A stretch of 64,000 bases of DNA from Liolophura sinensis. Lineage: Eukaryota; Mollusca; Polyplacophora; Chitonida; Chitonidae. The position numbers and the translations under genes are program-made. The stretch spans positions 64,587,249 to 64,651,248 of the forward strand of contig NC_088295.1 of the NCBI RefSeq assembly GCF_032854445.1, in the 5' to 3' direction. The notes under the pieces are model-generated. The model had not been told where the DNA came from, searched no databases, and saw only the letters and a program-made list of their open reading frames with translations. Shown in pieces: positions 2,405 to 57,720 of this stretch; position 1 is the stretch's first letter, and each line of letters opens with the position of its first letter.

Positions 2405-3295
2405 GGAAATTTAATTTGCTGGCGCAAAGTGATACAGGCAGACTGCGACCGAAGCACCCATTGGAACCCAGGGATTCCGAAAGTTTGGCTATAAATATTG
2501 CAATATTAGCGCTCCTTTTGCTCGACTAGATTTCAAACACATCTTGTACAGATTGATCTTTAGAAATTTTAAAATTTAACCGTACCGATACATACATCAA
2601 AGAATAATTATGAATTCACACATCCTGTGTGTAATCAAAATTATGCTTAGATTTGTGCGGGCAACATCTTTCTTATTCAGCACAAGGCTTAATATTTTGA
2701 TTAATACATGCAAGAAAATCAAAAATGGTCGAAAGACCAGTGCAAAAAGGTCTAATCACTGATGATTTAAACAGGAACAGATACAGAACGTATAACTGTA
2801 AAAGTATACCACTGGTTTACAATCGCCTTTTCACAACAGGAGTCTCACGGACGACAACACAAAAAGATCCAAAACGCTGTAGAACACAGCGCTGTTTTCT
2901 GTGGCGTCTCACTTCTTGTGTACTACATGTATAGGTTGTGTTTTATGAGCACACACACACCAATAACTGTGGTATAATAGAGGAAAGAACGAATTTGTTA
3001 ACAGCCTTGGAGGGTTTCATTTAAGGCGGGGAATAGTTTTACGAGTTTCCCCACTGATTTTAACTTCCTTGAGTTAAAACAGAGCTGTCACAATGAACAA
3101 TTCATAAATCCTGCAGGAAACGTCTCTCTTAAAATATTATGATCACCACTAAAGCAAACGTCACAAAGTTTCCAAGCGTCACAATAACGCACAATGTACA
3201 TCAATCTCTTCACGACGCATGTGCATAGTATTAAATGACATGCAGAGAAACACACCACCGTTGTCACTGAAGCCACGTAACAATACAATTCACGG

Positions 3296-3355
3296 CACGT
3301 GACTTGACGTCGCCAGGGACTATTCACTGCCTACATTGTACAGCACTCACACGTG
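3296..3355 (+). promoter_or_regulatory. Paired CACGTG E-boxes and CRE-like site, copy 1
   Basis: CACGTG at 3296-3301, TGACGTC at 3305-3311 and a second CACGTG at 3350-3355, 64-123 bp upstream of the ATG at 3419. The arrangement and spacing are the same in all three units. E-box and CRE motifs bind bHLH-Zip and CREB/ATF factors in animals; their use here is inferred from position and conservation only. I see no convincing TATA box. Confidence 0.35.
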
Positions 3356-3793
3356 ACAACGTTCACTATAGCAGCTACGTACGGACTTTACAATTACACA
3401 CGTTTATTTTGCGATACCATGTGTAGAAGATTTCGAAGAATTCGAAGACTTGCTCACCAAGTTGTACAGGTGACAAGAAGATTATGGCGGGTGTGCGGAT
3501 GTTGTGGAACGGTTAACGAAGAGTTCCAAAGAGACATTGTGCCTATGACTTCCGTGATCAACGGGGCGGTGACCAAAAGGTCTTCAGCGAACAACCCAGA
3601 GGTCTTTCCGTTAGGACTGTGCTGTTTCATACCACAAGGCAGGTACCTCATGCACGAAAATGAAGGTGTCCACAGCTGCCCATCGGTGCAAGCATCTGTA
3701 AACAAACAATCCTCGAGAACTGACTGGAACCATTCTGAGACTAGGCTCGCCACATGTGATGCATCTAAATCGGGACCTGGCGAAACGGTCCAA

Positions 3794-3917
3794 GATGAAT
3801 AAACAATGGCCAAGTGTACGCTAGTCCAACCAAAGATGGAATAAACAATGGCCAAGTGTACGCTAGTCCAACCAAAGATGAATAAACAATGGCCAAGTGT
3901 ACCCTAGTCCAACCAAA
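3794..3917 (+). repeat. Coding 42-bp tandem repeat, copy 1 (broken)
   Basis: Three copies encoding DGINNGQVYASPTK in the intact genes. Here repeats 1 and 3 are 41 bp because GATGGA has become GATGA, and this produces two of the six frameshifts. Repeat 2 keeps 42 bp. Confidence 0.9.
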
Positions 3918-5352
3918 GGACAACAAACTTTACCAAGGTCGGGAAAGGAATACCAGAATTTCAAGACTGATGTGAATGAGGGTGAGATAAATGGATCAGG
4001 TAAGACATCATCCATGGTATCTAAACGTACCCTCTACGCAAACAGCAGCAACACCGGCCAAACTGATGATTTTGTAGCCATGAGGTTGTACAAGCTCCTC
4101 ACTCCAGTTCATACCAACACTACATCTGAAGACAAGGATGCGACGGAGCAACTCATCCCACGTCAAGAGGACAGTATCCCTAATCAGATAGATGACCAGG
4201 TATCAATAAGAATTTACCCTAAGCCATCATATTTACCTAGATGTTCAACATCACCTGAAAATAGAAATAACAGAGAAACTAACCAAACAGATGATCACGT
4301 GCCCATGATATTTTATGGTCGGGATTCACCTACACCTAATCCAAAATTACATGGTATATTGCATAATAAGGATCAACATCATAGCACCAATCAGTCTCAT
4401 GAGAATTCCGTATCTCGACCAAACGAACCGTTCACTTCAAGCCCACAGTGCGCCGAATATTGTACACCCCTATCCCATGGAGTGGAATATTTACAACAAC
4501 CTGAAGTGCGACCACCCATCAACATGAACTCACAGACTGTTTGTTTGGCCGCCGTCGATCAGGAAATCTCATCTTGGAGTTTGCCAGAGAACAACTCTGG
4601 AATTTTATTTGTCCCTCCAAGTTGCCACTTGAAGAAAGATTATACAGCTCACCAACTAGCTGCGTTGATTTGGTAACGGTAACGGTTGGAGAAAAGAACA
4701 GGGAAATCGCCGTAAAAACCATGACCATGGCCGAGAGCGATCTGGAATCTACTCTTCTCATTGAATGTCAGTGTTCTCGTGTGGTACAGTTGTGTGCGTG
4801 TTACGTCCAGGGTGGTATGAGGTATTTGTGCATGCAGTATTACGAGAGAAGAGATCTGTCTGTTTGGCTAGCTAAGGACAGAAGAAAGTGTTATATCAGA
4901 GAAGAGGCAGCAACGTTGATTTGTGCCTACGTTCTGGCCGTTTGGAGTTTCTTCACTCCAAGAACATTCTCCACTTGAACGTTCAGCCTAGTAACATTCT
5001 CATCGATGGTGGAGGTTTCCCAGTTCTGACCGATTTTGGCAAAGCTCAGAGGAGACTGATGAGACAACCGCTGGAGTGCCCGGGCAGACTGGACGATATG
5101 CGGGGTTTGGCCTGTGTCCTGTACGAGTCTGTCACCCGCATAGTGCCCCCGTCTGAGGACAACATCTCATCGGATCTGAACCTCTCCATGCTGACAGAAG
5201 CCGCCAGCAACTTCGTCGGTTTTCATCTGACGTGTCCTCGACGGGAAAGGAGAAAGATGAAGCACCGCTGTGATCACGTGATGGGTCACAATCTCTTCTC
5301 CATGATCGACTGGAATGAAGTGAAGAACAGCAGCACATGCCGCCTTAACAAG

Positions 5353-5549
5353 GTAGAAAGATTTCTTCTTCTTCATCACCTTTACACACATAGAAAAGTG
5401 AAAATTTGATGTCAAAATATGGTCAAAATTGTTCTGAAAATAGAAGAGGGGGGAAAACACGAACAGATGTGTTTATTTTAAGAGTGTAACTTACTAAATA
5501 GTTTCTTTTATCTTACCATGAATCAATTCATAAATCATCAACTTTTCAG
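5353..5549 (+). other. Intron of pseudokinase gene, copy 1
   Basis: Runs from GTAGAAAG to AACTTTTCAG, 197 bp, the same length as in copies 2 and 3. The tail is pyrimidine-rich (CAACTTTTCAG). Confidence 0.7.
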
Positions 5550-5747
5550 TTGTTCAGCAAAATGGAGCGTGATGAATGGATGGCCAGGAACACGCCCGAC
5601 ATGCTGCCGGGGAACCCATTTCTACCAGCAAATAATGCAAATGTGGCAACACCATCCAGTGAAACACCATCTACGTCGGCGGAAACGCCAACAGAATCGT
5701 CTGATTCACTGACACAGTCCGCTGAAACACCAACACAATCGGCTTAA

Positions 5748-5945
5748 AAACCGATTCCATCCACCAAATCATCAACGCAATCGACTGAAACACCAACACT
5801 GTCGACTGAAGCACCTCCACAGTCGACTGTATCACCGACTCCAACTTGTAAAGCACAAGTACAATGGGCTGAAACAACGACCCTTTCGACTTTATCACCG
5901 ACTCCACTGCTGTTGCACTTACACAAATCTCTAACTAATCGCTAA
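5748..5945 (+). other. In-frame Ser/Thr/Pro extension after TAA, copy 1
   Basis: Beyond the TAA at 5745-5747 the frame is open for 65 more codons to a TAA at 5943-5945. It has the same S/T/P/E-rich texture as the end of exon 2. See the entry for copy 2. Confidence 0.5.
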
Positions 5946-6386
5946 GAGATCACAAAAATGCTGGTGCTGTTGACAGAAAGGGGATTGATTCAGGTTGTGC
6001 GGTTTAGCTAAATTACTCAGTCTTGCTTTAGGGCAAATTGACAGCGGTGAGCATTCATAAGGTACCTCAAAACAGTTATAACTTATCAGTAACTTCGTAT
6101 TTTAAGGAAGTATTTCGCAATTCAAATCCTATAGACATGAAAAATCAGTATAATACAAAGGTTACAAATGGTCGTTGTCAATAACGGTTGATAGCTTATG
6201 TGTAGATCATTTCTAGGAATTTGTTAGGACATGACATACAGTCAACAATATAATGGTATTCTCTAATGAAAGGGAGAAACAGGGTGTGACAGTTGGTCCA
6301 ACTGTCAGCATCTGTCCCACAAACATGCGCTGTTACAAATCATCATGAATGTAAATCCAGTGTTCTGTGGCCAGAAGAGCCTTCCA

Positions 6387-6392
6387 AATAAA
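6387..6392 (+). promoter_or_regulatory. Candidate AATAAA poly(A) signal, copy 1
   Basis: First AATAAA downstream of exon 2, in CCAAATAAACATG; the same context is conserved in all three units. It lies about 640 bp past the TAA, which would give a long 3' UTR. Confidence 0.25.
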
Positions 6393-7234
6393 CATGCTCT
6401 ACAGTATAGGCTTGCACGTCATGACATAATATGAACTGATACTTTAAGAATGCACGGTATATAGGCTTTGGCGTACCGAGATGGAGGCTCTCCCATTGTT
6501 TATTATAAAGCGTAAAAAATGCATGAATGGTGAAAATACAGGTAAGAAAGCTATTAGTTAGTACAAATGAGTGAACTGACTTTATTTATTCTATTCTTCA
6601 TCATATTTGAGATGATTTCATGTAATCTTACTTGGTAAAGTCCTAAAGGATTTACTTTTTTGTACCGTTACTCCTGTTTATGAAATAAAATACTACTAAA
6701 ATCAATGCGACGTGGCTTATAAGAGTTACAAATAATATCATGTTAAGTTCACAAGACAAACCACATTCGACTTCAGATTGGATAATGTCAATAACTTTAT
6801 AATTTTACTTGTTAACAATGAATTTAAGCACCTCAGAATGTCAGTATAATGTGGGAGTATAGCCAACAGATTTCTCGAAAGACTTTAGTACGTTTCGAAA
6901 CATTCAAATTTTTTTTGAATTTATTTAATTCCGTACGTTGGTATTTGTACATAGCACCATCTGAAATGAGTTCTTGACAGACAGTTGGAAATTACTTCGA
7001 TCGGTATGGACTGTCAAAGCATGTCCCGGAAATTTCATTTAACTTTAAATCTTTATAGTGTATTCCAAATGCATTTTTTTTTTCCAACGCATTTTCCAAC
7101 CAGTCTTGATCAAAATAAAGAGCACGTAATGAAGTGTGTGTCACCTGCTTCTAATCAAGTTAACTACTTGAAATAAAGCAGGAAAAATATTGTACACACG
7201 AAATTGTGAACCCCGGAGGCCAGTAACTCTGCTG

Positions 7235-7358
7235 CCACTTTCACAAAGCGGCGTACGACATTTTTGCGCGTTTTTATACAATATTTTGTACGTGACTGTT
7301 AACGTACTAGTGTCTCATATGTACGATATCGTACAAATACGACATCTTTGTGAAGTGT
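7235..7358. mobile_element. MITE-like element, copy 1
   Basis: About 124 bp bounded by the inverted ends CCACTTTCACAAAG and CTTTGTGAAGTG. The interior carries CGTACGAC and GATATCGTAC motifs. The same architecture occurs at 51450-51583 with perfect 16-bp TIRs, and in the other two 6.5-kb units. It has no coding capacity and is presumably a non-autonomous DNA transposon inserted before the triplication. Confidence 0.65.
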
Positions 7359-8404
7359 CCCTGATGAACGCCTCTTCCGTCTACACTGGCTGGAAGCTAC
7401 TGTTGTTCTCGCCTTTACTTTGCAGATCATTGCGTCAGTTCGATGTACCGATATTCAGACGTTAATACAAACAGAGAGCCTGTCTGTCTATATACAAGTC
7501 TCAATGTAAAGGCAGTGAGGTGCGTTCCCTAATTTAGGGGCGTCACGGAACTAGCCGATCAAACAGAAAATGGAGCGCACATGTTGTTCGTGAATATCCC
7601 ACGAGTCGCGTCCCAGAATAGCACATAAGTTTGTTAATATTTAAAGGTGAAGACATGGTAGCACAGCTAGGGGTGTCTGCAGGAGATACCATGACGTACA
7701 CATGTTACCTGTTTATTTACAACTGTATATATAGCAAACCCAGAGCAAGACAACTTGATCAGATATCAGGTATACTATTGACTATTGAACAGTTCAGCCA
7801 AACCACGATCAAGGTGTAGAAGCAGACAGGGATCAGGTATACCGATTAAACGCTTTTAGTTCTGATTTTAAAAAACATTTTAGTTTAGCCAAACCAGCGT
7901 GAGAACGAATTTGGACGAGTGAAAAAGAATCGAGGATATACAAAATGGAAAGAGGGTTAGCGTTGTAATCTAGACAGACGGTTGGAAAATGTTTCCAAAG
8001 AGTATGTCTACGAAACTTGCGGGTACTCATCGAGACTTGGATAGGAAAATTGTTAAAAATTGATATTTGAAGTTATAATAGTAACATAGATGAGAAAAAG
8101 AAACAAAAATAAAGAAAAAACCGAAAAAAGAAGAAAAATATCTCGGGTCCAGAGTTTCACTTATTTTGCCACTTTCCAACTGCTGTATCAATGAAATTAT
8201 CAGTAAAATAACAATTAATGTTTTAAGTAACTTTACAGGTGACTCGGTGATTCATAATTTGTATCAGAAGAGTTGAAGTACAGAATGGCCTGTCGGTTTT
8301 ATCAACTTAAAATTAACATTACTGATGGTTGTTTTTTATAGTGTCGATGAAAGATTTTCATTCCTCCAACCGGCTATCTGTAATAACAGGAAAGAAAACC
8401 CACA

Positions 8405-8821
8405 TTGACAAAACAGCACGGAAACCTATATTGTGTACGGGATTGTGGCTGTGAAAGAACGCTTTCAGAAGAAGACGATAATGTATGGACCAGGGTAATG
8501 ACATCACAGCTCTACCAGCTGTGCCTTAAATGGGTATCTGAATGCTTAATTTTTCACCTTGATAATTTAAGAAACCTCTTCCATAAGCTTTTCTGTCAAA
8601 CCATTACATACCATATCGCGAGGAAAGGTCGAGAACTTCCTCACCATTGTGATACAGCTCAGTTATCAGGGTGTTTCTGGCTACTTTACACAAGATTACT
8701 CCATCAGAATGAAGAGGATGAGTTTACCTTAATGACAGGGTTTTTGGAAAGCAACGTTTATCGACTCAGAAAGAGGGCTGTCTTCCTCATCAAGACGTTA
8801 GGTTATCTTCTGAGAAACTAA
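8405..8821 (+). CDS. Uncertain open stretch, unknown protein (copy 1 only)
   Basis: Open for 138 codons, beginning at a TTG; the first ATG is at 8498, leaving 107 codons. It is rich in Leu, Cys and Arg and ends ...YRLRKRAVFLIKTLGYLLRN. No family is recognised. The same DNA in units 2 and 3 is interrupted by stops and shifts. Diverged relatives of its last ~35 codons occur near 25740 and 27945, also interrupted. It could be a decayed exon or a chance open frame; I favour a relic. It does not join the pseudokinase gene by any splice site I can see. Confidence 0.15.
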   Translation: MTKQHGNLYCVRDCGCERTLSEEDDNVWTRVMTSQLYQLCLKWVSECLIFHLDNLRNLFHKLFCQTITYHIARKGRELPHHCDTAQLSGCFWLLYTRLLHQNEEDEFTLMTGFLESNVYRLRKRAVFLIKTLGYLLRN

Positions 8822-9888
8822 GTATCACGACAAGCACTAAACAATTATTAAAGGTATGTCTATTGTGCCAATTAAAACTGAAAAGCAGGTTAATGGATTT
8901 GTAGGAAATGGCTTTATAATAACACAACACTCGTTTGATTTAATTACTTATACGCCCAGCTGTTAGTACATGATTTTAACCTCCGAGTATATGACAAAAA
9001 GAAATACTGGAAATTTTCTCGAACAAAGTGATACAGATACTCCTTTTGCTCAACTAGATTTCAAACACATCTTGTGATTGATCTTGCAGATTGATCTTTA
9101 GAAATTTTAAAATTTGACCGTACCGATGCATACATCAAAGCATAATTATGAACTCACACATCCCTTTTTATTTCGAGATCCCCGTGTATCAAGCGTGGGC
9201 GTGCCTTCAGTGCGTAATCAAAATTATGCTTAGATTTGTGCGGGCAAGTCGCCCACTATAACATCTTTCTCATTCAGCACAAGGCTTAATATTTTGATAA
9301 ATACATGCAAGAAAATCAAAAATGGTCGAAAGACCAGTGCAAAAAGGTCTAATCACTGATGATTTAAACAGGAACAGATACAGAACGTATAACTGTAAAA
9401 GTATACTACTGGTTTACAATCGCCTTTTCACAACAGGAGTCTCACGGACGACAACACAAAAACATCCAAAACGCTGTACAACACAGCGCTGTTTTCTGTG
9501 GCGTCTCACTTCTTGTGTACTACATGTATAGGTGTGTTATGAGCACACATACACCAATAACTGTGATATAAGAGAGGAAAGACCAGACTTGTTAACAGCT
9601 TTGGAGGGTTTCATTTAAGGCGGGAAATAGTTTTACGAGTTTCCCCACTGATTTTAACTTCCTTGAGTTAAACAGAGCTGTCACAATGAACAATTCATAA
9701 ATCCTGCAGGAAATGTCTCTCTTTCAATATTATGATCAACACTAAAGCAAACGTCACAAAGTTTCCAAGCGTCACAATAACGCACAATGTACATCAATCT
9801 CTTCACGACGCATGTGCACAGCATTAAATGACATGCAGAGAAACACACCACCGTTGTCACTGAAGCCACGTAACAATACAATTCACGG

Positions 9889-9948
9889 CACGTGACTTGA
9901 CGTCGCCAGGGACTATTCACTGCCTACATTGTACAGCACTCACACGTG
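9889..9948 (+). promoter_or_regulatory. Paired CACGTG E-boxes and CRE-like site, copy 2
   Basis: CACGTG at 9889-9894, TGACGTC at 9898-9904 and CACGTG at 9943-9948, upstream of the ATG at 10012. Both spacing and sequence are conserved in all three units. Regulatory use is inferred. Confidence 0.35.
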
Positions 9949-10011
9949 ACAACGTTCACTATAGCAGCAACGTACGGACTTTACAATTACGCACGTTTAT
10001 TTTGCGAAACC

Positions 10012-12338
10012 ATGTGTAGAAGATTTCGAAGAATTCGAAGACTTGCTCACCAAGTTGTACAGGTGACAAGAAGATTATGGCGTGTGTGCGGATGTTGTGG
10101 AACGGTTAACGAAGAGTTCCAAAGAGACATTGTGCCTATGACTTCCGTGATCAACGGGGCGGTGACCAAAAGGTCTTCAGCGAACAACCCAGAGGTCTTT
10201 CCCTTAGGACTGTGCTGTTTCATACCACAAGGCAGGTACCTCATGTACGAAAATGAAGGTGTCCACAGCTGCCCATCGGTGCAAGCATCTGTAAACAAAC
10301 AATCCTCGAGAACTGACTGGAACCATCCTGAGACTAGGCTCGCCACATGTGATGCATCTAAATCGGGACCTGGCGAAACGGTCCAAGATGGAATAAACAA
10401 TGGCCAAGTGTACGCTAGTCCAACCAAAGATGGAATAAACAATGGCCAAGTGTACGCTAGTCCAACCAAAGATGGAATAAACAATGGCCAAGTGTACGCT
10501 AGTCCAACCAAAGGACAACAAATTCTACCGAGGTCGGGAAAGGAATACCAGAATTTCAAGACTGATGTGAATGAGGGTGAGACAAATGGATCAGGTAAGA
10601 CATCATCCATGGTATCTAAACGTACCCTCTACGCAAACAGCAGCAACACCGGCCAAACTGATGATTTTGTAGCCATGAGGTTGTACAAACTCCTCACTCC
10701 AGTTCATACCAACACTACATCTGAAAACAAGGATGCGACGGAGCAACTCATCCCACGTCAAGAGGACAGTATCCCTAATCAGATAGATGATCAGGTATCA
10801 ATAAGAGTTTACCCTAAGCCATCATATTTACCCAGATGTTCAACATCACCTGAAAATAGAAATAACAGAGAAACTAACCAAACAGATGATCACGTGCCCA
10901 TGATATTTTATGGTCGGGATTCACCTACACCTAATCCAAAGTTACATGGTATATTGCATAATAAGGATCAACATCATAGCACCAATCAGTCTCATGAGAA
11001 TTCCGTATCTCGACCGAAACGAACCGTTCACTTCGAGCCCACAGTGCGCCGAATATTGTACACCCCTATCCCATGGAGTGAATATTTACAACAACCTGAA
11101 GTGCGACCACCCATCAACATGAACTCACAGACTGTTTGTTTTGGTCGCCGTCGATCAGGAAATCTCATCTTGGAGTTTGCCAGAGAACAACTCTGGAATT
11201 TTATCTGTCCCTCCAAGTTGCCACTTGAAGAAAGATTATACAGCTCACCAACTAGCTGCGTTGATTTGGTAATGGTTGGAGAAAAGAACAGGGAAATCGC
11301 CATAAAAACCATGACCATGGCCGAGAGCGATCTGGAATCTACTCTTCTCATTGAATGTCAGTGTTCTCGTGTGGTACAGTTGTGTGCGTGTTACGTCCAG
11401 GGTGGTATGAGGTATTTGTGCATGCAGTATTACGAGAGAAGAGATCTGTCTGTTTGGCTAGCTAAGGACAGAAGAAAGTGTTATATCAGAGAAGAGGCAG
11501 CAACGTTGATTTGTGCCTACGTTCTGGCCGGTTTGGAGTTTCTTCACTCCAAGAACATTCTCCACTTGAACGTTCAGCCTAGTAACATTCTCATCGATGG
11601 TGGAGGTTTCCCAGTTCTGACCGATTTTGGCAAAGCTCAGAGGAGACTGATGAGACAACCGCTGGAGTGCCCGGGCAGACTGGACGATATGCGGGGTTTG
11701 GCCTGTGTCCTGTACGAGTCTGTCACCCGCATAGTGCCCCCGTCTGAGGACAACATCTCATCGGATCTGAACCTCTCCATGCTGACAGAAGCCGCCAGCA
11801 ACTTCGTCGGTTTTCATCTGACGTGTCCTCGACGGGAAAGGAGAAAGATGAAGCACCGCTGTGATCACGTGATGGGTCACAATCTCTTCTCCATGATCGA
11901 CTGGAATGAAGTGAAGAACAGCAGCACATGCCGCCTTAACAAGGTAGAAAGATTTCGTCTTTTTCATCACCTTTACACACATAGAAAAGTGAAAATTTGA
12001 TGTCAAAATATGGTCAAAATTGTTCTGAAAATAGAAGAGGGGGGAAAACACGAACAGATGTGTTTATTTTAAGAGTGTAACTTACTAAATAGTTTCTTTT
12101 ATCTTACCATGAATCAATTCATAAATCATCAACTTTTCAGTTGTTCAGCAAAATGGAGCGTGATGAATGGATGGCCAGGAACACGCCCGACATGCTGCCG
12201 GGGAACCCATTTCTACCAGCAAATAATGCAAATGTGGCAACACCATCCAGTGAAACACCATCTACGTCGGCGGAAACGCCAACAGAATCGTCTGATTCAC
12301 TGACACAGTTCACTGAAACACCAACACAATCGGCTTAA
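10012..12338 (+). CDS. Predicted two-exon pseudokinase, intact copy 2
   Basis: Exon 1 is 10012-11943 (644 codons) and exon 2 is 12141-12338 (65 codons plus TAA), giving 709 aa. The ATG is chosen over the upstream in-frame GTG at 9946 because it has a good Kozak context (AACCATGT). Domains in order: Arg-rich basic start (1-25), three 14-residue repeats (126-167), three QxDDxV modules (near 215, 257, 290), a PP1-docking-like KRTVHF (336-341) and a kinase-like domain (about 410-675). AIK lysine is K432, with a possible alpha-C Glu at 438 or 442. The catalytic loop reads HLNVQPSN (518-525), so the HRD Asp is Asn; DFG is intact (538-540). There is no Gly-rich loop and no APE. Exon 2 supplies subdomain XI (ARNTPDMLPGNPFL) and an S/T/P-rich tail. 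It is likely non-catalytic, a scaffold or decoy. The kinase family is not assigned; HL before the Asp position also occurs in MLCK/Trio-type kinases. Without splicing, the frame would end at 12000. Confidence 0.8.
10387..10512 (+). repeat. Coding 42-bp tandem repeat, 3 copies (copy 2)
   Basis: Three virtually perfect 42-bp units encode DGINNGQVYASPTK three times, in frame. The segment is hydrophilic with a repeated VYASPTK, where Tyr and Ser-Pro could be phosphorylation sites (inference). Confidence 0.95.
11944..12140 (+). other. Predicted GT-AG intron, 197 bp (copy 2)
   Basis: Donor AACAAG|GTAGAAAG follows codon 644 in phase 0, and acceptor ACTTTTCAG|TTGTTCAGC opens exon 2 in frame. The intron contains the first in-frame stop (TGA 11998-12000). 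Support is the protein logic: after splicing, LFSKMERDEWMARNTPDMLP continues into GNPFL, which matches the kinase subdomain XI pattern (conserved Arg, then xHPFL). Boundaries are identical in all three units. Confidence 0.75.
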
Positions 12339-12536
12339 AAACCGATTCCATCCACCAAATCATCAACGCAATCGACTGAAACACCAACACTGTCGACTGA
12401 AGCACCTCCACAGTCGACTGTATCACCGACTCCGACTTGTGAAGCACAAGTACAATGGGCTGAAACAACGACCCTTTCGACTTTATCACCGACTCCACTG
12501 CTGTTGCACTTACACAAATCTCTAACTAATCGCTAA
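12339..12536 (+). other. In-frame Ser/Thr/Pro extension after TAA, copy 2
   Basis: After the TAA at 12336-12338 the same frame stays open for 65 codons to a TAA at 12534-12536. It contains STQSTETPTLSTEAPPQS, like the pre-stop TSAETPTESSDSLTQ. The TAA therefore seems to divide one mucin-like low-complexity tail. All three units have the same TAA, so it predates the triplication. It may be an ancestral truncation or, less likely, a readthrough stop. Confidence 0.5.
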
Positions 12537-12967
12537 GAGATCACAAAAATGCTGGTGCTGTTGACAGGAAGGGGATTGATTCAGGTGTGCGGTTTAGCTA
12601 AATTACTCAGTCATGCTTTAGGGCAAATGGACAGCAGTGAGCATTCATAAGGTACTTCAAAACAGTTATAACTTATCAGTAACTTCGTATTTCAAGGAAG
12701 TATTTCGCAATTCAAATCCTATAGACATGAAAAATCAGTATAATACAAAGGTGTACAAATGGTCGTTGTCAATAACGGTTGATAGCTTGTGTGTAGATCA
12801 TTTCTAGGAATTTGTTAGGACATGACAGTCAACAATATAATGGTATTTTCTAATGAAAGGGAGGGTGTGACAGTTGGTCCAACTGTCAGCATTTGTCCCA
12901 CAAACATGCGCTGTTACAAATCATCATGAATGTAAATCCAGTGTTCTGTGGCCAGAAGAGCCTTCCA

Positions 12968-12973
12968 AATAAA
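12968..12973 (+). promoter_or_regulatory. Candidate AATAAA poly(A) signal, copy 2
   Basis: First AATAAA after exon 2, in the conserved context CCAAATAAACATG, about 630 bp past the stop. Confidence 0.25.
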
Positions 12974-13729
12974 CATGCTCTACAGTATAGGTTTGCACGT
13001 CCTGGCATAATATGAACCGATACTTTAAGAATGCACGGTATATAGGCTTTGGCGTACCGAGATGGAGGCTCTCCTATTGTTTATTCTTCATCATATTTGA
13101 GATGATTTCATGTAATCTTACTTGGTAAAGTCCTAAAAGGATTTCCTTTTTTGTATTTTTACTCCTGTTTATGAAATAAAATAGTACTAGAATCAATGCG
13201 ACGTGGTTCATAAGAGTTACAAAAATATTCTGTTAAGTTCACAGGACAAACCACATTCGACTTCAGATTGGATAATGTCAATAACTTTATAATTTTACTT
13301 GTTAACAATGAATTTAAGCACCTCAGAATGTCAGTATAATGTGGGAGTATAGCGAACAGATTTCTCGAAAGACTTTAGTACGTTTCGGAACATTCAAATT
13401 TTTTTTGAATTTATTTTAATTCCGTACGTTGGTATGTGTACATAGCACCATCTGAAATGAGTTCTTGACAGACAGTTTGGAAATTACTTCGATCGACTAC
13501 CAAAGCATGTCCTGGAAAATTTCATTTTACTTTAAATCTTTATAGTGTATTCCAAATGAGTATTTTTCCAACACATTTTCCAACCAATCTTGATCATCTT
13601 GATCAAAACAAAGTGCACGTAATGAAGTGTGTGCCACCTGCTTCTAATCAAGTTAACTACTTGAAATAAAGCAGGGAAAAAATATTGTACACACAAAATT
13701 GTGAACCCTGAAGGCCAGTAACTCTGCTG

Positions 13730-13854
13730 CCACTTTCACAAAGCGGCGTACGACATGTTTGCGCGTTTTTATACAATATTTTGCACATGACTGTTAACGT
13801 ACTAGTGCCTCATATGTACGATATCGTACAAATACGACATCTTTGTAAAAGTGG
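13730..13854. mobile_element. MITE-like element, copy 2
   Basis: Same element as at 7235-7358. The left end is CCACTTTCACAAAGCGG and the right end CTTTGTAAAAGTGG, so the right terminal repeat is slightly degraded. Confidence 0.6.
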
Positions 13855-14897
13855 TCCCTGATGAACGCCTCTTCCGTCTACACCTGGCTGGAAGCTACTG
13901 TTGTTCTCGCCTTTACTTTGCAGATCATTGCGTCAGTTCGTTGTACCGATATCCAGACATTAATACACACAGAGAGCCTGTCTGTCTATATACAAGTCTC
14001 AATGTAAAGGCAGTGAGGTGTGTTCCCTAATTTAGGGGCGTCACGGAACTAGCCGGACATACAGAAAATGGAGCGCACATGTTGTTCGTGAATATCCCAC
14101 GAGTCGCGTCCCAGAATAGCACATAAGTTTGTTAATATTTACAGGTGAAGGCATGGTAGCACAGCTAGGGGTGTCTGCAGCAGATACCATGACGTACACA
14201 TGTTATCTGTTTATTTACAACTGTATATATAGCAAACCCAGAGCAAGACAACTTGATCAGATATCAGGTATACTATTGAACAGTTCAGCCAAACCACGAT
14301 CAAGGTGTAGAAGCGAGACAAGAATCAGGTATACCGATTAAACGCTTTTAGTTCTTATTTTAAAAAAACATTTTAGTTTAGCCGAACCAGCGTGAGAACG
14401 AATTTGGACGAGTGGAAAAGAATCGAGGATATACAAAATGGAAAGAGGGTTAGCGTTGTAATCTAGACAGATGGTTGGAAAATGTTTCCAAGGAGTATGT
14501 CTCCGAAACTTGCGGGTACTCATTGAAACTTGGTTAAGCAAACTGTTAAAAAGTGATATTTGCAGTAAAATTAGTTCCATCGATGAGAAAAAGAAGCAAA
14601 AATAAAGAAAAAACCGAAAAAAGAAGAAAAATATCTCGGGTCCAGAGTGTCACTTATTTTGCCACTTTCCAACTGCTGTATCAATGAAATTATCAGTAAA
14701 ATAACAATTAATGTTTTAAGTAACTTTACAGGTGACTCGGTGATTCATAATTTGTATCAGAAGAGTTGAAGTACAGAATGGCCTGTCGGTTTTATCAACT
14801 TAAAATTAACATTACTGATGGTTGTTTTTTATTGTGTGGATGAAAGATTTTCATTCCTCCAACCGGCTCTCTGTAATAACAGGAAAGAAAACCCACA

Positions 14898-15316
14898 TTG
14901 GCAAAACAACACGGAAACCTATATTGTGTAGAGGATTGTTGCTGGGGAAAAAATCTTTTTAGAAGAAGATGATAATGTATGGACCAGAGTAATGACATCA
15001 CAGCTCTACCAGCTGTGCCTTAAAGAGGTATCTGAATGCTTCATTTTTCACCTTGACAATTTAAGAAACCTTTTCCATAAGCTTTTCTGTTTAAACCATT
15101 ACATACCACATCGAGAGCGTAGGTCGAGAACTTCCTCACCATTGTGATACAGCTCAATTATCAGGGTGTTTTTGGCTACTTTACGCAAGATTACTCCATC
15201 AGAATGAAGAAGATGAGTTTACCTTAATGACAGGGTTTTTGGAAAGCAACGTTTATCGACTCAGAAAGAGGGCTGTCTTCCTCATCCAGACTTTAAGTTA
15301 TCTTCTGAGAAATTAA
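14898..15316 (+). pseudogene. Interrupted counterpart of the 8405-8821 open stretch
   Basis: Aligns closely with 8405-8821 but carries substitutions and indels (GGGGAAAAAATC near 14945) that bring stops into the aligned frame. This argues that the open stretch in unit 1 is not a maintained gene. Confidence 0.3.
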
Positions 15317-16393
15317 GTATCACACACAGAAGACGACAAGCACTAAACAATTATTAAAGGTATGTCTATTGTGCCAATTAAAACTGAAAAGCAGGTTAAT
15401 GGATTTGTAGGAAATGGCTTTATAATAACACAACACTCGTTTGATTTAATTACTTATACGCCCAGGTGTTAGTACATGATTTTAACTTCCGAGTATATGA
15501 CAAAAAGAAATACTGGAAATTTGCTGGAACAAAGTGATACAGATACTCCTTTTGCTCAACTAGATTTCAAACACATCTTGTGACTGATCTTGCAGATTGA
15601 TCTTTAGAAATTTTAAAATTTGACCGTACCGATGCATACGTCAACGAATAATTATGAACTCCCCCTTCTATTTTTATTTTGAGATCCCCGTGTATCAAGC
15701 GTGGGCGTGCCTTCAGTGCGTAATCAAAATTAGGCTTAGATTTGTGCGGGCAACTCGCCCACTATAACATCTTTCTTATTTAGCACAAGGCTTAATATTT
15801 TGATTAATACATGCAAGAAAATCAAAAATGGTCGAAAAACCAGTGCAAAAAGGTCTGATCACTGATGATTTAAACAGGAACAGATACAGAACGTATAACT
15901 GTAAAAGTATACTACTGGTTTACAATCGCCTTTTCACAACAGGACTCTCACGGACGACAACACAAAAAGATCCAAAACGCTGTACAACACAGCGCTGTTT
16001 TCTGTGGCGTCTCACTTCTTGTGTACTACATGTATAGGTGTGTTATGAGCACACATACACCAATAACTGTGATGTAAAGAGGAAAGAACGAATTTGTTAA
16101 CAGCTTTGGAGGGTTTCATTTAAGGCGGGGAATAGTTTTACGAGTTTCCCCACTGATTTTAACTTCCTTGAGTTAAACAGAGCTGTCACAATGAACAATT
16201 CATAAATCTTGCAGGAAATGTCTGTCTTTCAATATTATGATCAACACTAAAGCAAACGTCACAAAGTTTCCAAGCGTCACAATAACGCACAATGTACATC
16301 AGTCTGTTCACCACGCATGTGCACAGCATTAATTGACATGCAGAAAAACACACCACCGTTGTCACTGAAGCCACGCAACAATACAATTCACGG

Positions 16394-16453
16394 CACGTGA
16401 CTTGACGTCGCCAGGGACTACCCACTGCCTACATTGTACAGCACTCACACGTG
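16394..16453 (+). promoter_or_regulatory. Paired CACGTG E-boxes and CRE-like site, copy 3
   Basis: CACGTG at 16394-16399, TGACGTC at 16403-16409 and CACGTG at 16448-16453, with the same layout as the other units. Regulatory use is inferred. Confidence 0.35.
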
Positions 16454-16516
16454 ACAACGTTCACTATAGCAGCTACGTACGGACTTTACAATTACGCACG
16501 TTTATTTTGCGCTACC

Positions 16517-18843
16517 ATGTGTAGAAGATTTCGAAGAATTCGAAGACTTGCTCACCAAGTTGTACAGGTGACAAGAAGATTATGGCGGGTGTGCGGATGT
16601 TGTGGAACGGTTAACGAAGAGTTCCAAAGAGACATTGTGCCTATGACTTCCGTGATCAACGGGGCGGTGACCAAAAGGTCTTCAGCGAACAACCCAGAGG
16701 TCTTTCCCTTAGGACTGTGCTGTTTCATACCACAAGGCAGGTACCTCATGCACGAAAATGAAGGTGTCCACAGCTGCCCATCGGTGCAAGCATCTGTAAA
16801 CAAACAATCCTCGAGAACAGACTGGAACCATTCTGAGACTAGGCTCGCCACATGTGATGCATCTAAATCGGGACCTGGCGAAACGGTCCAAGATGGAATA
16901 AACAATGGACAAGTGTACGCTAGTCCAACCAAAGGTGGAATAAACAATGGCCAAGTGTACGCTAGTCCAACCAAAGATGGAATAAACAATGGCCAAGTGT
17001 ACGCTAGTCCAACCAAAGGACAACAAATTCTACCAAGGTCGGGAAAGGAATACCAGAATTTCAAGACTGATGTGAATGAGGGTGAGATAAATGGATCAGG
17101 TAAGACATCATCCATGGTATCTAAACGTACCCTCTCCGCACACAGCAGCAACACCGGCCAAACTGATGATTTTGTAGCCATGAGGTTGTACAAGCTCCTC
17201 ACTCCAGTTCATACCAACACTACATCTGAAGACAAGGATGCGACGGAGCAACTCATCCCACGTCAAGAGGACAGTATCCCTAATCAGATAGATGATCAGG
17301 TATCAATAAGAGTTTACCCTAAGCCATCATCTTTACCTAGATGTTCAACATCACCTGAAAATAGAAATAACAGAGAAACTAACCAAACAGATGATCACGT
17401 GCCCATGATATTTTATGGTCGGGATTCACCTACACCTAATCCAAAGCTACATGGTATATTGCATAATAAGGATCAACATCATAGCACCAATCAGTCTCAT
17501 GAAAATTCCGTATCTCGACCGAAACGAACCGTTCACTTCAAGCCCACAGTGCGGCGAATATTGTACACCCCTATCCCATGGAGTGAATATTTACAACAAC
17601 CTGAAGAGGGACCACCCATCAACATGAACTCACAGACTGTTTGTTTTGGTCGCCGTCGATCAGGAAATCTCATCTTGGAGTTTGCCAGAGAACAACTCTG
17701 GAATTTTATCTGTCCATCCAAGTTGCCACTTGAAGAAAGATTATACAGCTCACCAACTAGCTGCGTTGATTTGGTAACGGTTGGAGAAAAGAACAGGGAA
17801 ATCGCCATAAAAACCATGACCATGGCCGAGAGCGATCTGGAATCTACTCTTCTCATTGAATGTCAGTGTTCTCGTGTGGTACAGTTGTGTGCGTGTTACG
17901 TCCAGGGTGGTATGAGGTATTTGTGCATGCAGTATTACGAGAGAAGAGATCTGTCTGTTTGGCTGATCAAGGACAGAAGAAAGTGTTATATCAGAGAAGA
18001 GGCAGCAACGTTGATTTGTGCCTACGTTCTCGCCGGTTTGGAGTTTCTTCACTCCAAGAACATTCTCCACTTGAACGTTCAGCCTAGTAACATTCTCATC
18101 GATGGTGGAGGTTTCCCAGTTCTGACCGATTTTGGCAAAGCTCAGAGGAGACTGATGAGACAACCGCTGGAGTCCCCGGGCAGACTGGACGATATGCGGG
18201 GTTTGGCCTGTGTCCTGTACGAGTCTGTCACCCGCATAGTGCCCCCGTCTGAGGACAACATCTCATCGAATCTGAACCTCTCCATGCTGACAGAAGCCGC
18301 CAGCAACTTCGTCGGTTTTCATCTGACGTGTCCTCGACGGGAAAGGAGAAAGATGAAGCACCGCTGTGATCACGTGATGGGTCACAATCTCTTCTCCATG
18401 ATCGACTGGAATGAAGTGAAGAACAGCAGCACATGCCGCCTTAACAAGGTAGAAAGATTTCGTCTTCTTCATCACCTTTACACACATAGAAAAGTGAAAA
18501 TTTGATGTCAAAATATGGTCAAAATTGTTCTGAAAATAGAAGAGGGGGGAAAACACGAACAGATGTGTTTATTTTAAGAGTGTAACTTACTAAATAGTTT
18601 CTTTTATCTTACCATGAATCAATTCATAAATCATCAACTTTTCAGTTGTTCAGCAAAATGGAGCGTGATGAATGGATGGCCAGGAACACGCCCGACATGC
18701 TGCCGGGGAACCCATTTCTACCAGCAAATAATGCAAATGTGGCAACACCATCCAGTGAAACACCATCTACGTCGGCGGAAACGCCAACAGAATCGTCTGA
18801 TTCACTGACACAGTTCACTGAAACACCAACACAATCGGCTTAA
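16517..18843 (+). CDS. Predicted two-exon pseudokinase, intact copy 3
   Basis: Exon 1 is 16517-18448 and exon 2 is 18646-18843, giving 709 aa in the same architecture as copy 2. Against copy 2 I count about 14 amino-acid replacements and about 11 silent changes in exon 1. Examples are E to K just after TVHF, A to I in the D-L-S-V-W-L segment, C to S after DFG, and V-R to E-G before the kinase-like domain. The AIK lysine, HLN and DFG are unchanged. The replacement-to-silent ratio is below the neutral expectation but not strongly so, consistent with weak or relaxed constraint. Both gene copies keep the intron and the TAA that splits the S/T/P tail. The function is unknown; a scaffold or decoy role is inferred from the lost catalytic Asp. 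Confidence 0.8.
16892..17017 (+). repeat. Coding 42-bp tandem repeat, 3 copies (copy 3)
   Basis: Same repeat as in copy 2. The second unit has D to G (KGGINNGQ) and the first has a silent GGC to GGA change, so the units can be told apart. Confidence 0.95.
18449..18645 (+). other. Predicted GT-AG intron, 197 bp (copy 3)
   Basis: Donor AACAAG|GTAGAAAG and acceptor ACTTTTCAG|TTG, the same boundaries and length as copy 2, phase 0. It contains the in-frame TGA at 18503-18505. Confidence 0.75.
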
Positions 18844-19041
18844 AAACCGATTCCATCCACCAAATCATCAACGCAATCGACTGAAACACCAACACTGTCG
18901 ACTGAAGCACCTCCACAGTCGACTGTATCACCGACTCCAACTTGTGAAGCACAAGTACAATGGGCTGAAACAACGACCCTTTCGACTTTATCACCGACTC
19001 CACTGCTGTTGCACTTACACAAATCTCTAACTAATCGCTAA
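18844..19041 (+). other. In-frame Ser/Thr/Pro extension after TAA, copy 3
   Basis: Open for 65 codons after the TAA at 18841-18843, to a TAA at 19039-19041. It is nearly identical to the extensions of copies 1 and 2. Confidence 0.5.
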
Positions 19042-19472
19042 GAGATCACAAAAATGCTGGTGCTGTTGACAGGAAGGGGATTGATTCAGGTGTGCGGTTT
19101 AGCTAAATTACTCAGTCATGCTTTAGGGCAAATGGACAGCAGTGAGCATTCATAAGGTACTTCAAAACAGTTATAACTTATCAGTAACTTCGTATTTCAA
19201 GGAAGTATTTCGCAATTCAAATCCTATATACATGAAAAATCAGTATAATACAAAGGTGTACAAATGGTCGTTGTCAATAACGGTTGATAGCTTATGTGTA
19301 GATCATTTCTAGGAATTTGTTAGGACATGACAGTCAACAATATAATGGTATTTTCTAATGAAAGGGAGGGTGTGACAGTTGGTCCAACTGTCAGCATTTG
19401 TCCGACAAACATGCGCTGTTACAAATCATCATGAATGTAAATCCAGTGTTCTGTGGCCAGAAGAGCCTTCCA

Positions 19473-19478
19473 AATAAA
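19473..19478 (+). promoter_or_regulatory. Candidate AATAAA poly(A) signal, copy 3
   Basis: First AATAAA after exon 2, in the same CCAAATAAACATG context as the other units. Confidence 0.25.
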
Positions 19479-20232
19479 CATGCTCTACAGTATAGGTTTG
19501 CACGTCCTGGCATAATATGAACCGATACTTTAAGAATGCACGGTATATAGGCTTTGGCGTACCGAGATGGAGGCTCTCCTATTGTTTATTCTTCATCATA
19601 TTTGAGATGATTTCATGTAATCTTACTTGGTAAAGTCCTAAAAGGATTTACTTTTTTGTATTTTTACTCCTGTTTATGAAATAAAATAGTACTAGAATCA
19701 ATGCGACGTGGTTCATAAGAGTTACAAAAATATTCTGTTAAGTTCACAGGACAAACCACATTCGACTTCAGATTGGATAATGTCAATAACTTTATAATTT
19801 TCCTTGTTAACAATGAATTTAAGCACCTCAGAATGTCAGTATAATGTGGGAGTATAGCCAACAGATTTCTCGAAAGACAGTTCGTTTCGGAACATTAAAA
19901 TTTTTTTTGAATTTATTTTAATTCCGTACGTTGGTATTTGTGCATAGCACCATCTGAAATGAGCTCTTGATGGACAGTTGGAAATTACTTCGATCGGTAT
20001 CGACTACCAAAGCATGTCCCGGAAATTTCATTTCACTTTAAATCTTTATAGTGTATTCCAAATGCGTTTTTTTTTCTTTCCAACACATTTTCCAACCAAT
20101 CTTGATCAAAACAAAGAGCACACAATGAAGTGTGTGCCACCTGCTTCTAATCAAGTTAACTAGTTGAAATAAAGCAGGGAAAAAATATTGTACACACGAA
20201 ATTGTGAACCCCGGAGGCCAGTAACTCTGCTG

Positions 20233-20358
20233 CCACTTTCACAAAGCGGTGTACGCCATTTTTGTGCGTTTTTGTACGATATTTTGTACGTCACTGTTAG
20301 CCTACCATTGTCCGATATGTGCGATATCGTACAAGTTTGACATCTTTGTGGAAGTGGT
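20233..20358. mobile_element. MITE-like element, copy 3
   Basis: Ends are CCACTTTCACAAAGCGG and CTTTGTGGAAGTGG, giving good inverted termini. The interior differs from copies 1 and 2 at many sites. Confidence 0.62.
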
Positions 20359-20555
20359 CCCTGACGAACGTCTCATTCGTCTACATCTGGCTGGAAGTTA
20401 CTGTTGTTCTCGCCTTCACACTGCGGACCATTGCGTCAGTTCGATGTACCGATATCCTGACATTAATACATACTGACAGCCTGTCTGTCTATATACACCT
20501 CTTAGAGTAAAGGCCATGAGGTGCGTTCCTTAATTTAGGAGCGTTAGGAAACTAG

Positions 20556-20692
20556 CTGCAATATATATGTTATCCAGGCGTCGAAACAGACATTCCTTAT
20601 GGTGGACCATGATGAGTAATCACAAATGAGTGGAGACATTGACGGATTTAGCCACGAGGCGAGAGTTGTCTCTTTGGGGAAAATTCACTAAG
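20556..20692. other. Segment private to unit 3
   Basis: About 137 bp lie between ACTAG and CCGGACAT, which are adjacent in unit 2 (ACTAGCCGGACAT). This is either an insertion in unit 3 or a loss in the others. Short CTAG/CTAAG similarity at the edges fits a deletion between microhomologies. No transposon ends were seen. Confidence 0.55.
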
Positions 20693-21530
20693 CCGGACAT
20701 GAAGCAAGTGGGGAACACATGTTGTTCGTGAATAGGCAACGAGTCGCGTCCCACAATAGCACATAAGTTTGTTAATATTTAAAGGTGAAGGCATGGTAGC
20801 ACAGCTAGGGGTGTCTGCATGGAGGTACCATGACGTACACATGTTACCTGTTTATTTACAACTGTATATATAGCAAACCCAGAGCAAGACGACTTAATCA
20901 GATATCAGGTATACAGACTATTCTGCCAAGCCACGATCAAGGTATAGAAGCGAGACAGGGATCAGGCATACCGACTGAACGCTTTTAGTTCTGATTACAG
21001 AAAAGATTTTAGTTTAGCCGAACCAGCGTGAAAACGAACTTGGACGAGTGGAAAAAAATCGAGGAAAAACAAAATGAGAAGAGGGTTAGCGTTGTAATCT
21101 AGACAGACGGTTGGAAAATGTTTCCAAAGAGTATGTCTCCGAAACTTGCGGGTACTCATCGAGACTTGGTTAAGCAAACTGTTAAAAAGTGATATTTGAA
21201 GTTATAATAGTAACATTGATGAGAAAAAGAAACAAAAATAAAGAAAAAACCGAAAAAAGAAGAAAAATATCTCGGGTCCAGAGTGTCACTTATTTTGCCA
21301 CTTTCCAACTGCTGTATCAATGAAATTATCAGTAAAATAACAATTAATGTTTTAAGTAACTTTACAGGTGACTCGGTGATTCAGAACTTGTATAAGAGTT
21401 GAAGTACAGAATGGCCTGTCGGTTTTATCAACTTAAAATTAACATTACTGATGGTTGTTTTTTATTGTGTGGATGAAAGATTTTCATTCCTCCAACCAGC
21501 TCTCTGTAATAACAGGAAAGAAAACCCACA

Positions 21531-21948
21531 TTGGCAAAACAACACGGAAACCTATATTGTGTAGAGGATTGTTGCTGGGGAAAAAATCTTTTTAGAAGAA
21601 GATGATAATGTATGGGCCAGAGTAATGACATCACAGCTCTACCAGCTGTGCCTTAAATGGGTATCTGAATGCTTCATTTTTCACCTTGACAATTTAAGAA
21701 ACCTTTTCCATAAGCTTTTCTGTTTAAACCATTACATACCACATCGAGAGCGTAGGTCGAGAACTTCCTCACCATTGTGATACAGCTCAGTTATCAGGGT
21801 GTTTTTGGCTACTTTACGCAAGATTACTCCATCAGAATGAAGAAGATGAGTTTACCTTAATGACAGGGGTTTTGGAAAGCAACGTTTATCGACTCAGAAA
21901 GAGGGCTGTCTTCCTCATCCAGACGTTAGGTTATCTTCTGAGAAACTA
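21531..21948 (+). pseudogene. Interrupted counterpart of the 8405-8821 open stretch
   Basis: Close homologue of 8405-8821, with the same disruptions as unit 2 (GGGGAAAAAATC near 21577), so the damage predates the split of copies 2 and 3. Confidence 0.3.
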
Positions 21949-22137
21949 AGTATCACACAAAGAAGACGACAAGCACTAAACAATTATTAAAGATATGTTT
22001 GTACCAATTAAATCTGAAAAGCAGGTTAATGGATTTGTAGGAAATAGCCTTAAAATAACACAACACTCATTTGATTCAATTATTTACATTCCCAGGTAAT
22101 AGTACATAATTTTAATTTCCGACAAAGAGAAATACCA

Positions 22138-23214: not shown

Positions 23215-24402
23215 TTATTCTGTTTTTCCTCGTATTTTCTACAATGCACTTTCATCATAATCGCAACTGTTATATTATCTTCTGGCGAAAACAAGAATAA
23301 CTTCACATTTAAGAATCAGATGACATTGCGACTCTCCCTTAAAAAGAGCTAAATGGAAAAAAGACTGCACGGTCAATTTAGTGATACAGGATTGTAGCCC
23401 AATAACAGCGTATCCATGATTCTCCCACAGACGGCAATGATGTCCTGTGCAATTTCTATGTGGTCATCAGGGCGCTAAACGATACCTTATTTTGATATGG
23501 GGAAGCTTTGGAAAGTAGGCCTAATCTGTGAGTAAGTTAGGCCGTTATGAAGTGGACAAATATCCTATCCCATTCGCATATGATTGATCCACGAGAAAAT
23601 ACCCGTCTCACTGTAATCACAGGAGCCTTCTTTCTCATTCAGCTGTATTCTAACAGGTTAATTTGTTCATATCCAAACGGATAGCACCGATAAAGAAAGC
23701 CAAAAAAAAATCAACCGATAAAATGGTACGGTAAGTTCATTTGTAGTATTTGTATAAACCTCTAATTCACCTCTCCCGTCGCCGTCACAACTGATGGCAA
23801 ACTCAGATCGGGCCCCAAAATCAATGATTTCAATTTCTCTCAAGAGATAATTTTGGATTAGTATTTGAATTTCATCAACTGGTAGCCCACGACGGGCAGA
23901 TTTTTGAGTCTTGGCGACTTTTTACTACATGTGTAATTAACAGTGGAGTGATTTATATTATGCCACTTACCAACTCAAAAGTCCCCTAGTCAAAACCCAT
24001 TCATCTTCCAAAAAACAACCTATAGTCATACATAAAATACACAAAATCTCCCCACACTCACGAACAATAACACAAATTGATGGGGGAAAAAACATAAAGT
24101 TTCAGCACCCGTTTTAGTATGTCTTCGCACAGAGTATAACCTTTAAAGAAAGATTTATATATTTTATTTACAGGTTGGGTTTAGAGAGTATCCACTATAA
24201 AGCATTCTACAGCCCTCTTCATCTGCATTTTTGTTCCAAACAAATCAGCTTTGCGCGCATACATTTCTGATATTCCATAGCTGTAAACATGATTCAGAAT
24301 AATACAAAAAGATGAAATATAACCTTAATGGAGCTTCGATTTAATGAGGTCTTATGTTCAACCTCGGGTTGGACAAGCTCCTTTACTCAAAATTGGTAAT
24401 AT
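23215..24402 (+). repeat. Relic tandem repeat, copy A
   Basis: Aligns over about 1.2 kb with 26245-27400. Shared blocks include ACTGATGGCAAACTCAGATC at 23789 and near 26829, AACAGTGGAGTGATTTATAT near 23939 and 26986, and GGTTGGAC/GGTCGGAT near 24365 and 27350. Divergence is far higher than among the 6.5-kb units. It is part of an older ~3-kb tandem array. Confidence 0.8.
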
Positions 24403-57717: not shown

Positions 57718-57720
57718 ATT

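Follow-up and report, generated by a model that had tools for sequence, protein, structure and literature searches.

The gene at the centre of this analysis (W2) very probably encodes a kinase-like protein without enzyme activity. Judged from its sequence, it appears to belong, with the other genes of its tandem array, to a dead branch of a mixed kinase and pseudokinase family in which most members still look able to act as kinases. We file the genes of the window (the whole stretch of 64,000 nucleotides of Liolophura sinensis DNA analysed here) as the pseudokinase branch of an AGC-like family, as compared within this one genome. Comparisons between copies and with relatives support the view that these putative pseudokinases are maintained by purifying selection. 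The features are collected in Table 1.

Table 1. Features of the window and loci of the family elsewhere in the genome (positions are those of the window unless a contig is named)
Feature	Position	Strand	Remarks
Tandem array, units of about 6.5 kb	about 2663..22122	+	window self-comparison
W1 (broken copy), exon 1-like part	3419..5352	+	exon 2-like part at 5550-5747
W2 exon 1	10012..11943	+	644 codons; ORF; donor AAG/GTAGAA, phase 0
W2 intron	11944..12140	+	197 nt, phase 0, GT-AG (GT..CAG)
W2 exon 2	12141..12338	+	65 aa, Ser/Thr/Pro-rich tail, TAA stop; aligns with VFKQIERDE..PIPPN.F of intronless paralogues
W2 N-terminal module, 57 aa	10012..10182	+	basic amphipathic helix MCRRFRRIRR.., then CGCCG
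W2 14-aa tandem repeat DGINNGQVYASPTK, about 3 copies	10385..10513	+	42-bp period, 3.1 copies, 100% match
W2 QxDDxV module 1, QTDDFVAMRLY	10654..10686	+	pattern match in protein
W2 QxDDxV module 2, QIDDQVSIRVY	10780..10812	+	pattern match in protein
W2 QxDDxV module 3, QTDDHVPMIFY	10879..10911	+	pattern match in protein
W2 KRTVHF	11017..11034	+	fits strict PP1 RVxF pattern; [KR]TVHF kept in C5 relative
W2 degenerate AGC-like kinase domain	11107..11943	+	Pfam PF00069; AGC affinity from family-profile PDB search
W2 HLNVQ	11563..11577	+	catalytic Asp to Asn (AAC, 11569-11571), catalytic-loop Lys to Gln
W2 DFG, retained	11623..11631	+	then shortened activation segment, 18 residues fewer than longest paralogues
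W3 (second open copy) exon 1	16517..18448	+	ORF, splice reading
W3 exon 2	18646..18843	+	identical to W2 exon 2
Open genes in the window and on C5	W2, W3, one on C5 (13463432-13476779)		C5 gene: L005, L006
Open genes on C12	C12L (C12:22.09M), C12b (C12:5.02M), C12c (C12:4.55M)		
Open genes on C7 and C6	C7a, C7b (C7:30.4M); C6a, C6b (C6:71.65M)		
Open genes on C1 and C3	C1b (C1:48.68M), C1c (C1:31.69M), C3a (C3:14.78M)		
Open genes on C4	C4a (C4:2.33M), C4b (C4:11.52M)		
Decayed- or fragmentary-looking loci, 6	W1, C6:2.559M, C6:2.509M, C6:5.94M, C1:83.03M, C4:11.50M		last from search matches only

A tandem array and the selection acting on it

The first-pass annotation had described three tandem copies of the gene. 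Three units about 6.5 kb apart are indeed present (exon 1 starts at 3419, 10012 and 16517; successive starts over the gene lie 6591-6595 and 6505 nt apart), but only W2 and W3 are open and W1 is broken. The two open copies share 98% protein identity, and their first exons differ at 29 of 1932 sites, with no gaps. In W1 a three-way alignment of exon 1 reveals seven length differences (five 1-base losses, one 1-base gain and one 6-base gain), five of which fall in homopolymers; a pairwise alignment extending 58 nt further has eight gap events. Private substitutions in exon 1 (synonymous/nonsynonymous) number 6/4 in W1, 4/6 in W2 and 9/10 in W3. The homopolymer-biased length differences of W1, together with its unrelaxed private substitutions, suggest that this copy is either newly broken or the product of an assembly error. 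The spacer of the tandem unit holds a 144-aa open frame (8387-8821) without Pfam match, which in the following unit is broken into two frames (14932-15316).

The 29 changes between the first exons of W2 and W3 comprise 13 synonymous and 16 nonsynonymous ones, which gives a dN/dS of 0.34 (binomial P 0.005 against neutrality), and the ratio is below one in all three segments of the comparison. The kinase domain taken alone has 4 synonymous and 6 nonsynonymous changes out of 10, a constraint that is not significant (P 0.16). At greater distance, the kinase domain of W2 differs from the fifth unit (C5e) of its nearest relative, on contig C5, by a dN of 0.305 and a dS of 1.64, the latter near saturation. 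C12b and C12c, two members that have both lost the Asp of DFG, show a dN/dS of 0.16 over some 310 residues near the C-terminus (P 2e-13). Values for other pairs in the family range from 0.09 to 0.56, with some intron codons included in the full-length C5 pairs; the exception, C6a-C6b, is uninformative because its kinase part has no synonymous and three nonsynonymous changes. The low ratios in W2-W3, W2-C5e and C12b-C12c thus suggest that dead members of the family are constrained.

One might instead see in this array recent and unimportant duplicates that are decaying into pseudogenes, given that W1 is broken and that five other loci of the family carry in-frame stops or are mere fragments. 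We consider this rather unlikely. W2 and W3 are open with intact splice sites, their dN/dS is low and the constraint extends back to the split from C5; even in W1 the substitutions are not more relaxed than in the open copies, and the length differences lie mostly in homopolymers.

Catalytic state of the focal protein

The W2 product counts 709 aa encoded by two exons. Its intron is supported by homology because three paralogues (C7a, C7b and C12L) read the matching protein (..RLL.VFKQIERDE..PIPPN.F) uninterrupted. The window and C5 genes carry an intron before the tail that these three paralogues lack, which points to a gain or loss inside the family.

W2 matches the eukaryotic protein kinase profile PF00069 (E 4.4e-18, 66.1 bits, cut-off 31.7), as does W3 (E 7.7e-18, above the cut-off). 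Each has one such domain, where tandem kinase-pseudokinases have two or more. The domain keeps the ATP-site Lys (AIK), the Glu of helix C, the catalytic-loop Asn and DFG. It lacks several residues expected of a competent kinase: the Asp of HRD (replaced in HLN), the catalytic-loop Lys (HLNVQ), which we take to be K168 in PKA numbering, the Gly loop and APE. Alone in the family, the branch formed by the window and C5 genes also misses 18 activation-segment residues, among them APE, and a further 9 residues that we place between helices F and G. By sequence, a pseudokinase is a conserved kinase domain that has lost at least one of the ATP-site Lys, the HRD Asp and the DFG Asp; W2 and W3 have lost the HRD Asp in a domain that is constrained relative to C5. 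The kinase-like domain with AIK, DFG and HLN and without Gly loop or APE was therefore described correctly by the first-pass annotation, as was the pseudokinase, although the latter is more degraded than had been stated, its catalytic-loop Lys and the 18 and 9 residues being lost as well. A structure prediction, also proposed there, was run with AlphaFold2 on the aligned kinase domains of the two window genes; its mean pLDDT of 29.9 is too low to establish how the truncated domain folds.

The closest analogues in catalytic state are HER3/ErbB3 and the JH2 domain of JAKs, in which, according to the available passages of one source (PMC4718504), the catalytic Asp is also an Asn while the ATP-site Lys and the DFG Asp are kept, and the activation loop of JH2 is short; the same passages describe very short activation loops in many pseudokinases. 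Yet these proteins belong to other kinase groups and work in a receptor or JAK context, and HER3 has no helix-C Glu, which W2 and W3 keep. In those passages HER3, whose catalytic Asp is replaced by Asn, is a tight binder of ATP that autophosphorylates weakly at high local concentration (PMC4718504). This behaviour, and the retention of Lys, Glu, Asn and DFG, would be consistent with the window genes being atypical, weakly active kinases in which the Asn of HLN allows slow phosphotransfer. But the catalytic-loop Lys and the Gly loop are gone too and the missing 18 residues include APE, and we find such residual activity quite unlikely.

A mixed family within one genome

A protein search of the animal's own genome (609 Mb, 632 contigs) gave 49 matches and was extended with two paralogues and with the N-terminal module. 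Counts from searches of so large a family are lower bounds, and many weaker matches of the paralogue searches, possibly ordinary kinases, were left uncounted. At least 15 open genes combine the N-terminal module with the kinase domain, and nine of these have the main catalytic residues. The domain order does not, then, stand alone as the first-pass annotation had supposed. Its remark that no described family shares this order fared better: in the profile search that it proposed, a Pfam scan of 12 family proteins (2 at E<=1, 10 at E<=0.01), only kinase models matched, and none in the N-terminus or linker. Another six loci appear decayed or fragmentary, and some of them could be intron-split genes. 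One locus (L007:1114-8106) has a single open frame of 2331 aa for a family member whose N-terminal module and kinase domain are separated by a very long, degenerate SNSTDHHEGG-like repeat.

Searching the genome with the N-terminal module gave 18 matches at E<=1 (the weakest two at E 0.014 and 0.043). They correspond to 13 of the 15 open genes and five of the six other loci, C12b and C12c being too diverged for a match. The module looks private to the family because all 18 matches adjoin kinase-like sequence of the family.

The 19 family domains that were aligned have HLD, HMD or HLN, and none has HRD. In nine genes (C12L, C7a, C7b, C1b, C4a, C1c, C4b, C6a and C6b) the ATP-site Lys and the Glu of helix C are intact, as are HxD and its Lys, DFG, and an APE-like motif (SPE or CPE). 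A clear Gly loop is found in C4b only, which makes the activity of the eight others less sure. Elsewhere losses differ: C12b and C12c have lost the DFG Asp and the catalytic-loop Lys, and C3a has lost both of these together with the ATP-site Lys and the HRD Asp. In a tree of the family the window and C5 genes form a clade (100/100) on a long stem (1.17). Losses of the catalytic Asp, read by eye from this tree, fall in four places (the window genes, C5 units b and c, C3a, and C12b/c), with the caveat that several long branches (including those of C3a and C4b) may be wrongly placed. It is also possible that the Asp was lost once in the ancestor of the window and C5 genes and then restored in C5 by reversal or conversion.

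A profile of 17 family domains, with two of the five C5 units omitted, placed RSK, SGK, S6K, PKG, PDK1 and MRCK first in a search of the PDB (best RSK2 at E 2.6e-40, then SGK1 and S6K1). The C4b domain alone also returned RSK first. W2 alone matched a mixture of AGC, STE and other kinases (MAP2K-like, STK3, SGK1, RSK), with AGC not clearly favoured. The family resembles AGC kinases (the N-terminal domain of RSK, SGK, S6K, PKG, PDK1) in kinase-domain sequence and in the end of the C-lobe (RLG..G...H..F..IDW). It differs from them in having HLD, HMD or HLN for HRD, a private N-terminal module and, in the window and C5 branch, a shortened activation segment. The AGC tail domain Pkinase_C had no match in the 12 family proteins, and we therefore regard the family as AGC-like by its domain rather than as canonical AGC kinases. 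A scan of viral contigs with the profile of 17 domains confirmed one locus among 38 candidates, with 31% identity over 66 residues, which is probably an ordinary kinase.

A relative with apparently five kinase-like domains

The C5 locus, nearest relative of the window genes, has one N-terminal module and, after it, five kinase units that are nearly identical, with few changes between them: three have HLD (a, d and e, reading HLDVK) and two HLN (b and c, reading HLNLK). From its sequence it appears to be one gene with one transcript. Its five introns are of 380-381 nt, all in phase 0, and share the donor GTATGTATA and one acceptor; none of them has an AATAAA or ATTAAA. Exons of 993, four times 737 and 161 codons would give a protein of 4,102 aa. 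The QxDDxV modules number 34 by a fixed pattern and 35 in a looser listing.

Live-looking and dead domains in one chain are also described, in the passages available, for plant tandem kinase-pseudokinases and for PK1/PK2 of obscurin (PMC6170490; PMC10129394). Those proteins have two kinase domains, whereas the C5 gene has five near-identical ones and each window gene has one. No single protein with five kinase domains turned up among the literature matches listed; the "five kinase domains" in the relevant passage of PMC10111769 refer to a leech gene cluster, not to one protein.

The N-terminal module and the linker

The Arg-rich N-terminus, the 14-residue repeats, the QxDDxV modules and the KRTVHF motif singled out by the first-pass annotation were all recovered. 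The first 24 residues of W2 carry a net charge of +9 and have a hydrophobic moment of 0.79 (shuffle P 0.003). Across the 11 members scored, the charge of this segment is +6 to +9, a Cys cluster follows, and the hydrophobic moment exceeds that of shuffled sequences in ten (P<=0.029; C12b, P 0.125). Our preferred reading is that the helix and the Cys cluster would act as a peripheral membrane tether; a nuclear or mitochondrial targeting signal is possible. Several paralogues start with MG, but the window gene starts with MC followed by Arg, and N-myristoylation, unlikely by the usual pattern, was set aside.

Both RTVHF and KTVHF fit the strict RVxF pattern for docking of PP1, and [KR]TVHF stands as an island of identity between the window and C5 genes. 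Matches of this type occur in 3.6% of shuffled linkers of W2 and in 2.9% of those of C5b. Apart from a differently placed match in C12b and C12c, a scan of 19 sequences showed the motif in none but the window and C5 genes. The window proteins might perhaps recruit PP1 through it. There is a parallel in Plasmodium, whose pseudokinase PfpTKL binds PP1 through RVxF motifs and has been proposed as a scaffold, as described in the passages available of PMC6544628; yet this protein belongs to the TKL group and carries SAM and MORN domains.

W2 has three QxDDxV modules, whereas 1000 shuffles gave at most 1 and on average 0.002. As a DNA pattern the module has 50 matches genome-wide; 32 are accounted for by the array of the window, with 6, and the C5 gene, with 26. 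Thirteen of the remaining 18 represent a single repeated sequence (..GAAGTTGGAATG) and five are single places, as against five for a reversed-pattern control. These leftovers, either one repeat or near the control level, point to no clear partner gene.

The modules might be read as sites for the dynein light chain LC8, which would make the protein, above all the C5 relative, an LC8-zippered polybivalent scaffold. The residues before DD are SQT in C5, whose modules read TSQTDD and stand in arrays, and in the passages available of PMC5963919 abolishing the binding of LC8 to human ASCIZ also required the mutation of three SQT/VQT motifs. Yet in the window these residues are GQT, NQI and NQT, and conservation runs downstream (DDxVxMRxY), past the 10-residue LC8 motif, whose TQT is given as positions 7-9. 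We find this weaker reading of the modules very unlikely.

Surroundings in the window and the genome

The window has no Rfam match at the gathering threshold. Outside the three gene copies it contains 11 ORFs of at least 110 aa, and none of the ten that were scanned (49157-49498, on the minus strand, being left out) has a Pfam match at E<=0.01. That the window genes are defence decoys, a possibility raised in the first-pass annotation, and bait pathogen effectors or viral kinases, which would explain a rapid birth and death of copies, is highly improbable: the family does show tandem duplication and decayed copies, and plant tandem kinase-pseudokinases function in immunity according to the passages available of PMC6170490, but dN/dS stays below one throughout the W2-W3 comparison, and the ten unmatched ORFs mean that no immune neighbour was seen.

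The window also contains a minisatellite of 43-bp units spanning 2.3 kb (55447-57725) in a more G+C-rich stretch, and a direct repeat of 0.5 kb, 77% identical (23459-23961 and 26486-27007). Elsewhere in the assembly, contig C99 carries COX1 about every 15.5 kb, as if mitochondrial DNA had been assembled into a tandem concatemer. A mitochondrial stretch read with the invertebrate code gives COX1 beside frames that we take to be ND3, ND2, COX2 and ATP6, an arrangement consistent with a mollusc.

Discussion

We consider it probable, from these sequence features, that W2 and W3 are intracellular pseudokinase scaffolds, a dead branch of an AGC-derived family, tethered to membranes and binding partners multivalently without phosphotransfer. 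The cationic amphipathic helix and the N-terminal Cys cluster would tether the protein to the membrane. The linker, which its composition suggests to be disordered, would offer docking sites through the QxDDxV modules and the RVxF-like motif, possibly for PP1. The C-terminal kinase fold, perhaps loaded with nucleotide, would bind a partner without phosphotransfer. The likeliest role for such a protein would be to hold, or to compete for, partners of its catalytically competent paralogues.

A broader reading is more tentative and, taken as a whole, doubtful. It would see here an undescribed AGC-derived family of mollusc kinases, marked by an N-terminal helix of its own that binds membranes and by losses of catalysis in some four separate lineages. 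One of these branches would have turned its dead domain, deprived of its activation loop, into a phosphatase-recruiting multivalent scaffold, while the sister gene would encode a protein of about 4,100 aa with five kinase domains, at least 34 docking motifs and both HLD and HLN in one chain. No published description of the family was found among the literature matches listed; a study of the oyster kinome counts 28 AGC kinases, and the word "pseudokinase" is absent from its passages available (PMC4883820).

Within one genome the family offers a graded series: an apparently complete kinase (C4b) stands at one end, members with partial losses lie in between, and a domain that has neither catalytic Asp nor activation loop stands at the other. 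Since constraint can be measured on its dead members, this series allows a direct test of what a kinase retains once it is dead. The C5 gene, in turn, lends itself to asking whether a dead domain regulates a live neighbour within what looks like a single chain.
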